A DNA stretch of 64,000 nt from Vibrio ponticus (lineage in GTDB: Bacteria > Pseudomonadota > Gammaproteobacteria > Enterobacterales > Vibrionaceae). Each line of letters opens with the position of its first letter. The first letter of the stretch is position 1. Under the pieces are notes generated by a model. The model ran no database searches and was not told the DNA's origin. It was given only the letters and a program-made list of their open reading frames with translations. The position numbers and the translations under genes are program-made. Shown piece after piece: positions 28,913 to 35,925 of the stretch. The DNA is taken from positions 1,488,001 through 1,552,000 of the forward strand of contig NZ_AP019657.1 of assembly GCF_009938225.1 (NCBI RefSeq), given 5' to 3'.

Positions 28913-29272
28913 TTAATGGACTGCTTGGCTGCGTAACTTTGCAAAGTGCTTAGGATAATTGTTGCGGATATGGCGTTGCTGCTCAACCATATCTTTAAAT
29001 GACGGTCCCTGATGAAGCTCCAAAATGACTTCATTATCATCAAAGCGCAATATCTGCCCTTTTACTTTAATTTGATTCTCGATGCCTAAACTCAGCGTAC
29101 CGGTGAGTGTCAAACCTCGATACAAACTGGCAAGATTGTTCATGATAATGCGAATCCCCTTTTCTGAGATTTCACTCACATGAAACAACTGCTCATCGAT
29201 ACTGACGACAGGCATAGCGCGGCGTGGGTATTTCAATCGATAATACCGGCGTTTCTGCACATAATCGTTCAT
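28913..29272 (-). CDS. PilZ-domain protein
   Basis: 119-aa single-domain protein, likely a cyclic-di-GMP receptor. The N-terminal RxxxR motif is seen in QKRRYYRLKYPRR (about residues 7-17), followed by the second ligand motif in the form SEISEKGIRI (D/NxSxxG class, D replaced by E). Remaining beta strands follow to residue 100, then an amphipathic helical tail. The gene stands alone on the minus strand with ribosome site AAGGAAGT. The window also holds GGDEF and GGDEF-EAL enzymes, so it may belong to the same network. Confidence 0.85.
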   Translation of the reverse strand: MNDYVQKRRYYRLKYPRRAMPVVSIDEQLFHVSEISEKGIRIIMNNLASLYRGLTLTGTLSLGIENQIKVKGQILRFDDNEVILELHQGPSFKDMVEQQRHIRNNYPKHFAKLRSQAVH

Positions 29273-30392: not shown

Positions 30393-30433
30393 CTGCCCTG
30401 ACTGACTTCGTTTTACTCAATGCTTAACGACCA

Positions 30434-30462
30434 AAGCCCTAACTGTCCAAACGTTAGGGCTT
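30434..30462 (+). terminator. rarD terminator
   Basis: AAGCCCTAAC / GTTAGGGCTT perfect 10-bp stem, followed by GTTGTTT on the plus strand. Confidence 0.85.
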
Positions 30463-30503
30463 GTTGTTTAGCGAATAACAAGCATTCTCCGATCGCTCTG
30501 AGC

Positions 30504-30728
30504 TTAATGCTCGCGCCCTGACGGGTTAACTCCGAATTCGACTTGTTGGTAAATATCTGCCAATTTCTTTGGCGTTTTATTAACGGCTTTACGCTTAGCC
30601 TTGATGGTCATGAATGATGATTGTTCTTGCAGCGCTTTCTGGTGCGCTTTCGCTGACTTAAGATATTCCTGATTCGCCATCGCTTGTTGGCGTGCACGAT
30701 TTACGCGTTCTAGTGTGTCCCACAACAT
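30504..30728 (-). CDS. Small basic helical protein controlled by two LexA boxes
   Basis: 74-aa protein that I do not recognise. It is basic and predicted helical: MLWDTLERVNRARQQAMANQ, then a K/Q-rich coiled stretch (EYLKSAKAHQKALQEQ, residues 21-36), then KAKRKAVNKTPKKLADIYQQVEFGVNPSG. The ATG at 30728 is chosen because TGGAGG sits six bases before it; an upstream ATG (30752) lies inside the promoter region. Two perfect CTGT-N8-ACAG sites flank its promoter, so it should be a damage-inducible (SOS) gene. No membrane helix. A role such as cell-division or nucleoid control would be speculation. Confidence 0.85.
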   Translation of the reverse strand: MLWDTLERVNRARQQAMANQEYLKSAKAHQKALQEQSSFMTIKAKRKAVNKTPKKLADIYQQVEFGVNPSGREH

Positions 30729-30744
30729 ACTCCACCTCCATTTA

Positions 30745-30760
30745 CTGTTCATACATACAG
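30745..30760. promoter_or_regulatory. LexA box 2, at the -10/start region
   Basis: CTGTTCATACATACAG, a perfect CTGT-N8-ACAG palindrome. It overlaps the -10 (TATGCT, 30764-30759 on the minus strand) and the predicted start site of the 74-aa gene. Confidence 0.9.
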
Positions 30761-30786
30761 CATAATCACTGAAAGTATATTGTCAA
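30759..30786 (-). promoter_or_regulatory. Sigma-70 promoter of the SOS gene
   Basis: Perfect TTGACA -35 at 30786-30781, 16-base spacer and TATGCT at 30764-30759. The leader is only about 22-24 bases. Confidence 0.8.
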
Positions 30787-30793
30787 GAAAATA

Positions 30794-30809
30794 CTGTATA
30801 TTAAAACAG
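30794..30809. promoter_or_regulatory. LexA box 1, just upstream of the -35
   Basis: CTGTATATTAAAACAG within TACTGTATATTAAAACAGGT, close to the LexA consensus TACTGTATATATATACAGTA. Centres of the two boxes are 49 bases apart, near five helical turns. Confidence 0.92.
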
Positions 30810-31235: not shown

Positions 31236-33083
31236 ATGATTAACAAAGAGACGATGCTCTACAAAGCGATAAGCTCTGGTATTTTAATCAAGGTCGCTTA
31301 CATCGCAGCAGTCGCATTAATTACTCATACCCTCATTACAGAACATGAGTTGGTAGGGCTCTCTTACGTCCTCTTTCCAATTGGCATGTTGTGCGCGCTA
31401 TTCACAAAATCGACTCAACGTAAAAAACTGTTCGCATGCCTTTCATTTGCACACATACTTGTTGGCGGAATGATCGAACCACTAGAAATAGACGCCATTG
31501 AGAAATCGTTCCTACTTTTGCCGCTGTGCTATTTGATCCTATTTCCAGCAACGCTCTGGCCACTGGTTATTGCAATATTATTAGTCTCACACTACTTTCT
31601 TTCGGTGCCGACTGACGATTTACTCGAGATGGCAGACGACTCAGTTAAGCTGCTTTTAATCACGATCTTCGCCACCAGCATGACTTACTATAAGATCAAG
31701 TCCGACAAGCAGTTAAACAAATATCGTGATGACAGTTTGAGTGACTTTCTCACCAAATTGCCAAACCGACGCGCTTTTTATCAATACATCGCTAAAAATG
31801 CTGACTGTAGTATTGGTAATAAAGACTTTGTGTTACTTAAGATCGACATCGACAATTTCAAAGATGCCAACGATTCTTTTGGTCCAGAACAAGCAGATGT
31901 ACTACTTAGGTTTATCGCAACCAGACTCAAACAAGTCACCATCAACAAAGCCGAGCTATTTCGCTTAGAAGGTGACGAATTTATTATCGTCGTCAGTGAG
32001 AAGGCTGATATCGAACAACAGGTCAGTGGGCTCGTACGTGAGCTCTCTCGCCCCGAGCGTTTCCATTTTGAGTTAGATCGTGGCTTTTACCAAGTCACCT
32101 TCTCTATTGGTATTTCCTCACTTAAGAAAGCAACCAATAACCGCGACATTTGGCTCAAGAATGTCGATATCGCGACTCTCAAAGCCAAGAGTACTGGCAA
32201 AAATAGAGTGCGTTGGTACGATGAATCACTGCTTGATGAAACCATACGTGCTCACCAAGTCGAAATTGAACTAGAACAGGCCATTCGCCTCAATCAGTTC
32301 GTCCTTCACTATCAACCTAAAGTATCAATACGTGATCAGAAAGTAAGAGGAGCAGAAGCGCTCATACGTTGGGAGCATCCCGACTTAGGCACAATCAGCC
32401 CATTTGAGTTTATTTCTGTTGCCGAAAAGACAAAGCAAATCATAATGATCGGTCGGTGGGTGATTAAAGAGGCATGTGAGCAAGCCAAACATTGGTATGA
32501 TGAAGGCTCTTCAATACAGGTCTCCGTCAATGTATCAACAATACAATTTGCCCATGATGATCTGCTGACTTATATTCGCCACATACTAAGACGAACCGAA
32601 TTACCACCTCATCTGTTGCAAATAGAGATCACGGAAACAACCTTGATGAAAGATACCGAGCGTGTCACTCGTATCTGTCAGCGATTACAAGATGAAGGGG
32701 TCACTATCGCGGTTGATGATTTTGGCATTGCCTACTCTTCACTTAACTATTTAAAGCAACTGCCTATCGATGTACTCAAAATCGATAAGTCTTTTGTTGA
32801 TGATTGCGTGAGTGCACACCACGACCATATGCTGGTGAGAACCATTGTTCAGCTTGGACACAACATGGGTAAATGGGTCATCGCCGAAGGCGTAGAACAT
32901 GAAGAACAGCGCCAACTATTGTCTCATGAAGGCTGTGATGATTATCAAGGCTACTTGTTCTCGAAACCATTATCAGCAAACGAATTTGGACATCGCTATG
33001 TCTCTCTACCCAAAGAACAACAAACTTTGGAGATACCGACAACAAAAGAAAAAACTGCTGAGTTTAAAGCGATTCTAGATTAG
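31236..33083 (+). CDS. Membrane GGDEF-EAL protein, probable c-di-GMP phosphodiesterase
   Basis: 615-aa protein from the ATG at 31236 (AAGGAAGCAGA before it); the TTG at 31194 is less likely. Residues 10-165 hold about six hydrophobic segments. A GGDEF domain (about 175-330) has the degenerate signature RLEGDEF, with the first Gly replaced by Glu, so cyclase activity is doubtful. The EAL domain (345-600) looks complete: GAEALIRWEHP, EITET, DDFGIAYSSLNYL, KIDKSFVDD, AEGVEHEEQ, GYLFSKPL. Prediction: it degrades cyclic-di-GMP, with the GGDEF part perhaps GTP-sensing. Convergent with the photolyase operon: its end overlaps the next gene's by 20 bases on the opposite strand. Confidence 0.9.
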   Translation: MINKETMLYKAISSGILIKVAYIAAVALITHTLITEHELVGLSYVLFPIGMLCALFTKSTQRKKLFACLSFAHILVGGMIEPLEIDAIEKSFLLLPLCYLILFPATLWPLVIAILLVSHYFLSVPTDDLLEMADDSVKLLLITIFATSMTYYKIKSDKQLNKYRDDSLSDFLTKLPNRRAFYQYIAKNADCSIGNKDFVLLKIDIDNFKDANDSFGPEQADVLLRFIATRLKQVTINKAELFRLEGDEFIIVVSEKADIEQQVSGLVRELSRPERFHFELDRGFYQVTFSIGISSLKKATNNRDIWLKNVDIATLKAKSTGKNRVRWYDESLLDETIRAHQVEIELEQAIRLNQFVLHYQPKVSIRDQKVRGAEALIRWEHPDLGTISPFEFISVAEKTKQIIMIGRWVIKEACEQAKHWYDEGSSIQVSVNVSTIQFAHDDLLTYIRHILRRTELPPHLLQIEITETTLMKDTERVTRICQRLQDEGVTIAVDDFGIAYSSLNYLKQLPIDVLKIDKSFVDDCVSAHHDHMLVRTIVQLGHNMGKWVIAEGVEHEEQRQLLSHEGCDDYQGYLFSKPLSANEFGHRYVSLPKEQQTLEIPTTKEKTAEFKAILD

Positions 33084-34608
33084 CCAACCAATATTCTGCT
33101 CGATCCAGTACTTGTTGTTGCTGGTCATCATCTAGCGCATCCCAAGAACGATATATCATACCAATTCGCGGATTGTTACCAATGAGCTCTCGGTTGGTGT
33201 GCATGAACCGCCAATATAGACTATTGAGAGGACAGGCACTCTCTTCGACTTTACCCTTCACGTTGTAATGACACGATTTGCAGTAGTCGCTCATCCGATT
33301 GACATAAGCGCCACTCGCCGCATAAGGCTTAGTGCCAACGATACCACCATCCGCAAACAGCGCCATTCCTCTGGTGTTGGGCATCTCCACCCACTCGATG
33401 GCATCGATATAAATGCCTAAATACCACGCATCCACCTGGTCGGGGTCAATTTCCGTAATCAAACAAAAGTTGCCGGTAATCATCAGGCGTTGAATATGAT
33501 GAGCGTAAGCATACTTGAGTGATTGTTTAACCGCTTGGTGAACACAATTAAGTCGTGTGTCCCCTGTCCAGAAAAAGCTCGGCAACTTACGCTTCGCGTT
33601 GAGCGCATTGATGGTTTTGTAGTGAGGCATATTTGCCCAATAAACACCACGCACATACTCGCGCCAACCAAGGATCTGGCGAACAAATCCTTCTATTTGT
33701 GCAATGTCGATATCATCGCGTTGCTGATAGGTATTAACGGCTGTCGTAATCACTTCAAAAGGGCTAATCAGTTTACTGTTGAGTGCAAATGAAAGGCGGC
33801 TGTGATAAAGACTCCAAGCGCTATCATGCTGATCTGTCATCGCATCTTGAAATGAACCAAAATTGGGCAAACAACGTTGGCAAAAGAACGCTAGTAAATT
33901 CAAACTTTGACTTCGAGTCACCGGCCAAAGCAGTTGTTCGTTCAACTCACCAATAGTCGTAACATGATGACGCTCGATACGTTGCTTGATGTGCCTTATA
34001 TCGTTACTAAACATCAATGGTGCTGGCAGTTGCTCAAGGTCCTTTTGTTTCAGCGGTTTTCTATTGCGTGCGTCAAAGTTCCATTTACCACCTTGTGGCT
34101 TCCCCGCTTCCATTAAGATGTCATATCGCTTGCGCATCCCACGATAGAAATGTTCCATCAACACGTGCTTACCAACCGGAAATGCCTGCTCTATTTCCTC
34201 AAACGGTAATAAAAAATGCTCACTGTCGACACAAGATGTTTCGCATGACCACTGGTGGTAAGCTAATTGTTGCGCCAAACGGTATTCGTCCGGGCGTTGA
34301 TACTCAAATCGCTCAGCTTGATAATACCTAATCAAGTGTTCAATCAACGTAGGTAGTGAGTCAAACTCAGCGGTGTCATCCAGATCTAAATAATCCACAT
34401 GATGACCTGATTGACGTAACTCAGTAGCAAAAGCTTCCATTGCGGCAAAAAATGTCGCCACCTTTTGACCATGATGTTTTACGTAGTCAGTCTCTTGCTT
34501 CAATTCAGCAATAACGTAGAGAACGCTCGGATCGAGTTCTTTAAACCAAGAGTGTTGATGGTTAAGCTGGTCACCCAGCACCAGTCTAATCGTTGCAATC
34601 TTCATCAT
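33064..34608 (-). CDS. Iron-sulfur cryptochrome/photolyase, PhrB-like (6-4) type
   Basis: 514-aa FAD protein of the FeS-BCP group (deoxyribodipyrimidine photolyase-related), which in Agrobacterium PhrB repairs (6-4) photoproducts. N-terminal Rossmann-like antenna domain begins IATIRLVLGDQLNHQHSWF. The FAD-binding helical part is around FVRQILGWREYVRGVYW ... LPSFFWTGDTRLNCV. Cluster ligands: Cys in LNCVHQAV and CKSCHYNVKGKVEESACPLN, consistent with a [4Fe-4S] site. ATGATG follows directly the stop of the DASH gene (TAGATGATG), so they are one operon. Symbol withheld because several Vibrio paralogues exist. Confidence 0.88.
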   Translation of the reverse strand: MMKIATIRLVLGDQLNHQHSWFKELDPSVLYVIAELKQETDYVKHHGQKVATFFAAMEAFATELRQSGHHVDYLDLDDTAEFDSLPTLIEHLIRYYQAERFEYQRPDEYRLAQQLAYHQWSCETSCVDSEHFLLPFEEIEQAFPVGKHVLMEHFYRGMRKRYDILMEAGKPQGGKWNFDARNRKPLKQKDLEQLPAPLMFSNDIRHIKQRIERHHVTTIGELNEQLLWPVTRSQSLNLLAFFCQRCLPNFGSFQDAMTDQHDSAWSLYHSRLSFALNSKLISPFEVITTAVNTYQQRDDIDIAQIEGFVRQILGWREYVRGVYWANMPHYKTINALNAKRKLPSFFWTGDTRLNCVHQAVKQSLKYAYAHHIQRLMITGNFCLITEIDPDQVDAWYLGIYIDAIEWVEMPNTRGMALFADGGIVGTKPYAASGAYVNRMSDYCKSCHYNVKGKVEESACPLNSLYWRFMHTNRELIGNNPRIGMIYRSWDALDDDQQQQVLDRAEYWLANLESL

Positions 34609-35925
34609 CTACGCTCGTATTGGCCAATCGACCATATCAACGCTGTCTGTACCAAGGTCACTGTCGCCTTTCCAACAACGGACAAACTTCCCTTCCGGAT
34701 CGTACAGCATTGCCTGCTTTGCCTGATCAAAACGTCTTGGCATATTGCTCGCCCCCACTCCTGCAATGTATTGCCAGTTCCCCCAATTAGAAGCGACATC
34801 GTAATCGATTAACTGAGTCTCAAAATAGGCTGCACCATAACGCCAATCAATACCCAACTCATGGATAAGGCAACTCGCCACCAATTGGCGACCTCGATTC
34901 GACATGTAACCAGTTTGATTAAGTTGTTTCATGCAGGCATTTACTAGAGGAAACGCCGTTGCTCCTATTTTCCATTGTTTGAAACGCTGAGGGTAGAATG
35001 TAGCAAGTGACGCTTTACCTTTTACCCCGGAAAAACGAAATAGCTTTTTGCCATACTTAAGCGCGTACCAATGAAAATACTCACGCCACAGTAACTCAAA
35101 GTAAATCCAGTAGGTCGACTCATTGCTGCCATTTCGTTTCTCGTATTGAGTCAGCATTTCCATCACTTGCCTTACCGAAATCGAACCGTTCGCCAGCCAA
35201 GGAGAGAATTTAGTTGAGTACTCTTTTCCATCAAGTTCATTGCGCGTTTGCTTGTAATTACTGGCAAAAGATGTCGAGAAATAGCACATAGCGTGAGCTA
35301 ATGCGAAAGACTCTCCCCCGATAAACAGGTCCTCGCTACTTATCACTAAGCCAGGTAATACTGTGGCATTAAGGGTATGCTTTGCAGGGCGAGGTAGTTG
35401 GAAAATTTCAGAGCTCACTTGGCTGGGAACAATAGTCTCAACTTGTTTGCGAAATTTAGTGAAGGAGCTCGGTAGCTCTTCGAGAGCAAAGGGCAAATCG
35501 GATTGTTGAAACAGCGTGCTTTGTTGGAGTTGAGTGATTTTAACCCGAGGAAAATAGGCTCGAATATGTTCGATAACCAGCTGTTCATCACTAGAGACAA
35601 AGTCTTGGCAATAAAGATGCGTGATTGCGTCCTCTGAGCACAAGTGCGACAACGCACTAAAGGGATGTGCATCAACGACAACAAGGTGTTGCCCATACTC
35701 CGCTAAACTTTCATCTAAACCGTTTAATGTTTGGATTAGAAAGCGTTGCCGTGCGTCACCAAATTTTGATTCACTGGTGAAATGTTGCAGATATTCAGAG
35801 AAAGGAGGGAGGCAGAACAAGCAAATGAGTTTATCGACTTCTCGAGCCGCTCTGTCTAGCAAAGCATTGTCGTTCAATCGTAAGTCGTTGGTAAACCAAT
35901 ACACTCCAATCTTTTCTTTGCGCAT
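34609..35925 (-). CDS. DASH-type cryptochrome
   Basis: 438-aa flavoprotein with an N-terminal alpha/beta antenna domain (IGVYWFTNDLRLNDNALLDRAA) and a C-terminal FAD domain. CRY-DASH features: WIYFELLWREYFHWYALKYG, GYMSNRGRQLVASCLIHELGIDWRYGAAYFETQLIDYDVASNWGNWQYIAGVG and NMPRRFDQAKQA. DASH proteins repair single-stranded or looped cyclobutane dimers and may signal blue light. The start is the ATG at 35925 after GTGGGGGCGAC; a frame to 35958 exists. First gene of a two-gene photoprotection operon. Confidence 0.92.
   Translation of the reverse strand: MRKEKIGVYWFTNDLRLNDNALLDRAAREVDKLICLFCLPPFSEYLQHFTSESKFGDARQRFLIQTLNGLDESLAEYGQHLVVVDAHPFSALSHLCSEDAITHLYCQDFVSSDEQLVIEHIRAYFPRVKITQLQQSTLFQQSDLPFALEELPSSFTKFRKQVETIVPSQVSSEIFQLPRPAKHTLNATVLPGLVISSEDLFIGGESFALAHAMCYFSTSFASNYKQTRNELDGKEYSTKFSPWLANGSISVRQVMEMLTQYEKRNGSNESTYWIYFELLWREYFHWYALKYGKKLFRFSGVKGKASLATFYPQRFKQWKIGATAFPLVNACMKQLNQTGYMSNRGRQLVASCLIHELGIDWRYGAAYFETQLIDYDVASNWGNWQYIAGVGASNMPRRFDQAKQAMLYDPEGKFVRCWKGDSDLGTDSVDMVDWPIRA

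Follow-up and report, generated by a model that had tools for sequence, protein, structure and literature searches.

YebG and DinI are small LexA-controlled SOS proteins of E. coli. Closest to the locus described here is unfB (VC1368/VP1428), which, like the gene that we analysed, is a small Vibrio SOS gene with LexA sites in its promoter. It was named in 2012 in V. parahaemolyticus (VP1428), where LexA shifted the promoter in gel assays, and both the gene and its LexA site were thought to be limited to human-pathogenic species (Sanchez-Alberola et al., 2012, PMC3323433). As set out in the parts of a later report drawn on here, VC1368 is the unfB of V. cholerae, is co-transcribed with VC1369 (a periplasmic component) and VC1370 (a GGDEF protein), and is induced 16.0-fold by mitomycin C, about as strongly as recA (16.4-fold) and less than recN (47.0-fold) (Krin et al., 2018, PMC5963079). 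The same source describes reduced UV survival of the V. cholerae unfB deletion mutant, gives significant mitomycin C sensitivity for the tatABC mutant alone among those tested (and so not for unfB), and states that, apart from unfA and rstAB2, the co-induced genes keep their synteny with the neighboring SOS genes throughout Vibrio (Krin et al., 2018, PMC5963079). Within the literature that we searched, no molecular function of UnfB was found in print.

The window (the whole 64-kb stretch of DNA that was analyzed) carries an unfB-like open reading frame of 74 aa plus stop on the minus strand (30504..30728, with the ATG at 30728), preceded by the ribosome-binding site GGAGGTGG (30732..30739, minus strand), read from the sequence. 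The good ribosome site of the original prediction is thus present, and a Shine-Dalgarno-like motif stands before 80 of the 83 distinct copies of the gene that we compared. Against the relative L032, the differences at the three codon positions number 10, 7 and 32 (dN 0.116, dS 1.32), and against four relatives of 72-84% identity (pN 0.11-0.20, pS 0.62-0.88) they are likewise concentrated at third positions; this third-position excess and the low pN indicate that the frame is coding and under purifying selection. Judged from these comparisons, the ORF is real, with its start, ribosome site and protein all conserved. A longer, 82-aa reading from an ATG at 30752 would begin within the proximal LexA box.

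After the homologues at L065 (V. furnissii) and L072 come two genes, of 337-339 and 444 aa, which Pfam identifies at L072 as NMT1 and HAMP-GGDEF, matching the order after VC1368. Because this order is that of V. cholerae, the window gene, whose protein is 54% identical to the L072-type homologue (G173), is taken as unfB; the identity is by synteny, VC1368 and VP1428 being known from their descriptions. The gene had been put forward as a possibly undescribed Vibrio damage-response factor, and only the first half of that suggestion has to be given up: it matches a gene in print since 2012, and the tie to unfB leaves one supposed new factor fewer, while its place as a conserved LexA-controlled SOS gene agrees with the published LexA binding and mitomycin C induction of unfB (in the parts of those reports drawn on here). 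What is left is a sharper question, that of an SOS-induced gene on which UV survival depends but whose protein can be assigned to no known family or fold.

The two perfect LexA boxes that drew attention to the locus are both exact CTGT-N8-ACAG matches, and the window holds no others. The proximal box (30745..30760, no strand) lies 32 nt 5' of the ATG in gene orientation, and the distal box (30794..30809, no strand) lies 49 bp from it. Between them, a consensus scan places a putative sigma-70-like promoter, TTGACA-16-TATGCT (30759..30786, minus strand), with 10 of 12 matches, where 1.7 promoter-like sites would be expected by chance over the scanned stretch. The layout is as originally described, with the -35 directly 3' of the distal box and the -10 sharing 2 bases with the proximal one. 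A single box of this kind is not rare (0.92 expected per 64-kb window, with at least two in 24 of 100 shuffles), and near-consensus LexA 20-mers (up to 2 mismatches) are not enriched in the genome (192 matches vs 227 for a reversed-pattern control), so that one box alone means little and the rarity lies in the close pair. Exact pairs with a gap of 4-34 nt occur once in the 4,796,932-base genome, at unfB, and not at all with the reversed-pattern control; a rough estimate from the box rate of the window gives about 0.03 close exact pairs expected genome-wide. As a positive control, two close LexA-like sites (one exact, one with a mismatch) before a frame named RecN by NCBIfam rank among the top matches of that genome scan, recN being a known SOS gene.

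Homologues were found (E 0.001) in 88 of 197 Vibrionaceae genomes, comprising 79 of 95 of the same genus and 9 others, and six genomes carry a second copy. For the comparison of promoters, 90 of the 94 matches (weak ones in G046, G051, G059 and G078, outside the genus, were left out) and 11 named loci gave 101 rows and 83 distinct proteins. A sample of 394 genomes of the order held no convincing match outside the Vibrionaceae: 29 genomes matched, 28 of them of the same genus, and the remaining one, weak (E 0.004) and within a frame of 1522 aa, was taken as chance.

Counting boxes in the 130 bases upstream and allowing at most one mismatch among the 8 fixed bases, we found two in 39 of the 83 distinct copies, one in 19 and none in 25, compared with at least one box in 7 of 329 control stretches taken from these loci (two in one of them); exact boxes alone gave two in 17, one in 26 and none in 40. 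At least one box thus stands before 58 of the 83 distinct copies, so that the ORF and its boxes recur together in related Vibrio, and unfB seems to travel with its operator. Relatives repeatedly have a proximal-type box at about -28 to -38, and a loose TTGANN/TATNNT promoter pattern is present in 36 of the 83. Of the 11 named loci, none lacks a box and five have two, which corrects the published inference, as given in the parts of the 2012 report drawn on here, that boxed unfB is limited to human-pathogenic vibrios. By analogy with unfB in the other species, and given two exact boxes around a promoter, we infer that the window gene is LexA-controlled and induced by DNA damage.

In the 39 two-box copies, the boxes are 48-50 bp apart in 30, 27-28 bp in 6, 52 bp in 2 and 61 bp in 1. 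The shorter spacing, rather than 48-50 bp, characterizes a subtype of 62-64 aa (L121, L123, L124, L125, L132 and L138). The 25 box-less copies consist of 17 of one clade and 8 others, mostly second copies. That clade (L082-L120) has proteins starting MIW[DE]TLERVNK, and every one of its 17 distinct copies is without a box, which means that the gene must be regulated differently there. For the role of the double operator, this clade and the two spacings offer natural comparisons. New here are the boxed copies in many further species, the box-less clade, the second spacing and a paralogue on a plasmid, close to tra genes.

The double operator had also been read as the mark of a late or toxic SOS function. 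A toxin, or a part of a toxin-antitoxin or phage module, would explain such tight repression; however, the published induction of unfB, which is similar to that of recA and stays below that of recN, does not bear this out, and loss of unfB makes V. cholerae UV-sensitive (PMC5963079, in the parts drawn on here), which speaks for protection rather than toxicity. Strong purifying selection on the gene and the absence of any constant partner gene in the 41 unfB neighborhoods weigh against it as well. At E 0.01 the window protein has no match among phages or plasmids, and of 31 pattern matches from a profile scan of viral contigs none was confirmed. We regard a toxin or module of this kind as highly improbable.

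The protein is basic and helical, as had been described, with a charge of +6.7, a pI of 10.1 and predicted helices at 2-18, 20-49 and 56-61 (mean pLDDT 76, pTM 0.40, so that the model is usable for helical character alone). It is laid out as a conserved helical N-terminal part, a variable lysine/arginine-rich linker (7 K/R, 0 D/E) and a conserved L-A-D-I-Y...E-F C-terminal tail; over 42 aligned members, N10, R13, A26 and H29 are invariant and M1, R8, A16, L56 and Y60 nearly so. No convincing family was found for the 42 members in Pfam (best E 0.0034) or PHROGs (best E 0.0018), NCBIfam gave no curated or convincing score (best E 0.0027), and PDB sequences gave no usable match (best E 0.39); Foldseek likewise found nothing usable for the model (E 8.7 in the PDB, 7.1 and higher among viral models).

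Taken together, it is very probable that the locus is the Vibrio unfB orthologue, with a promoter shut by LexA and released upon damage, encoding an accessory protein of repair or protection. LexA on two boxes, either side of the -35/-10, would keep the promoter shut; DNA damage would lead to RecA-driven cleavage of LexA, and the small protein would be made from its own transcript. The product, a soluble, basic, helical protein, is most likely an accessory factor in DNA repair or protection, probably a small adaptor, whose N-terminal part and tail would dock on a partner protein while the linker touches DNA. Counting against this reading are the published lack of mitomycin C sensitivity of the V. 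cholerae unfB mutant, the 25 box-less copies, the fall to 17 two-box copies when boxes must be exact, the scarcity of the NMT1/GGDEF pair next to the homologues and the weak fold model. The regulatory half of this scheme is well supported and the adaptor half is what we infer from the protein; docking combined with DNA contact is a tentative model, which we would sooner expect to see revised than upheld.

Size, SOS control and a conserved N-terminal face and tail resembling a protein-docking module would also suit a modulator of RecA, LexA or DNA polymerase, in a role like that of DinI or PsiB. Anti-SOS genes are at home near plasmid conjugation genes, and a paralogue of unfB is found upstream of such genes on a plasmid. 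On the other side, none of the 42 members has a Pfam, NCBIfam or PHROG family at a curated or convincing score. Neither the YebG nor the DinI family is among the matches listed for them (in Pfam, 25 of 37 families). We consider a modulator possible, if rather unlikely.

The paralogue in question is box-less and lies on the 225-kb V. gigantis plasmid p1 (L145, L146 and L186; WP_081230236.1, annotated as hypothetical), from a few hundred bases to about 1 kb upstream of a TraL-TraE/K-TraB gene run. As a speculation that we think unlikely to hold as a whole, UnfB could found a Vibrionaceae-wide family of two-part adaptors (helical domain, basic linker and LADIY...EF tail) for the repair of chromosomal DNA damage that has also been taken up by conjugative plasmids, where the box-less copy may act during transfer, either by shielding single strands as they enter or by tuning the SOS response of the host.

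The main alternative to the repair role that we prefer is division control, and division inhibition was among the functions first suggested for the protein. SOS division inhibitors of the small, lineage-restricted kind include YneA, SosA and SidA, and UnfB, being small, lineage-restricted and tightly LexA-controlled, could be a small functional counterpart of SulA (PF03846), likewise a small SOS-controlled protein. In its favor, 19 of the 79 same-genus genomes with unfB have no SulA match (E 0.01). However, the suggestion gains no support from the protein, which has no membrane stretch (the best 19-residue hydropathy is -0.41 for the window protein and 0.25 over the 83 copies), or from the company that it keeps. 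Pfam matches of the window protein up to E 10 do not include PF03846, and the same genome has a separate SulA-family ORF (23.4 and 23.1 bits vs a cut-off of 23.1) with a LexA-like box at its start. SulA matches are, if anything, commoner with unfB (60 of 79 genomes vs 6 of 16), in counts that ignore kinship and that may take in some other proteins, matched weakly on frames of about 240 aa; this co-occurrence speaks against a simple replacement of SulA. We consider an SOS division inhibitor quite improbable. The SulA-like ORF (L141, 1396-1806; genome C1, about 1098293-1098703) has two further LexA-like boxes 0.2 kb from the one at its start.

With a role in repair or protection still preferred, the surroundings of the gene add a few observations. 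The window unfB stands alone, flanked by a convergent EamA gene and, at its other end, a divergent GGDEF-EAL gene, in contrast to the NMT1/GGDEF flank of VC1368, and with neighbors so oriented read-through into such genes is impossible here. Beyond L065 and L072, homologues followed by the VC1369-VC1370 type of gene pair were found at L070 and L077, making four of 41 neighborhoods, a frequency that contrasts with the Vibrio-wide synteny stated in print (PMC5963079, in the parts drawn on here). No neighbor gene is constant across the 41. Where the EamA gene and unfB converge, a 9-bp hairpin between their ends (30434..30461, minus strand; the fold of 30428-30475 has -15.7 kcal/mol, z -2.6) is a possible terminator common to both, and was not among the sites listed by the terminator scan.

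In 10 of the 41 neighborhoods the retrieved flanks include a GGDEF gene (the genome has 41 GGDEF matches); a functional link to cyclic-di-GMP genes was considered and dropped, since these flanks cluster in a few lineages, and we do not claim one. Two photolyase-type genes (DPRP; DNA_photolyase/FAD_binding_7) lie 2.3-5 kb upstream of unfB (33064-35922, minus strand), and could possibly form a UV-related cluster with it; a DPRP gene is also near unfB in V. fluminensis and V. rhodolitus, whereas most other neighborhoods do not show such a cluster. Finally, a PilZ-domain gene (28913-29272, minus strand) is present in the window and recurs near unfB in 9 of the 41 neighborhoods.
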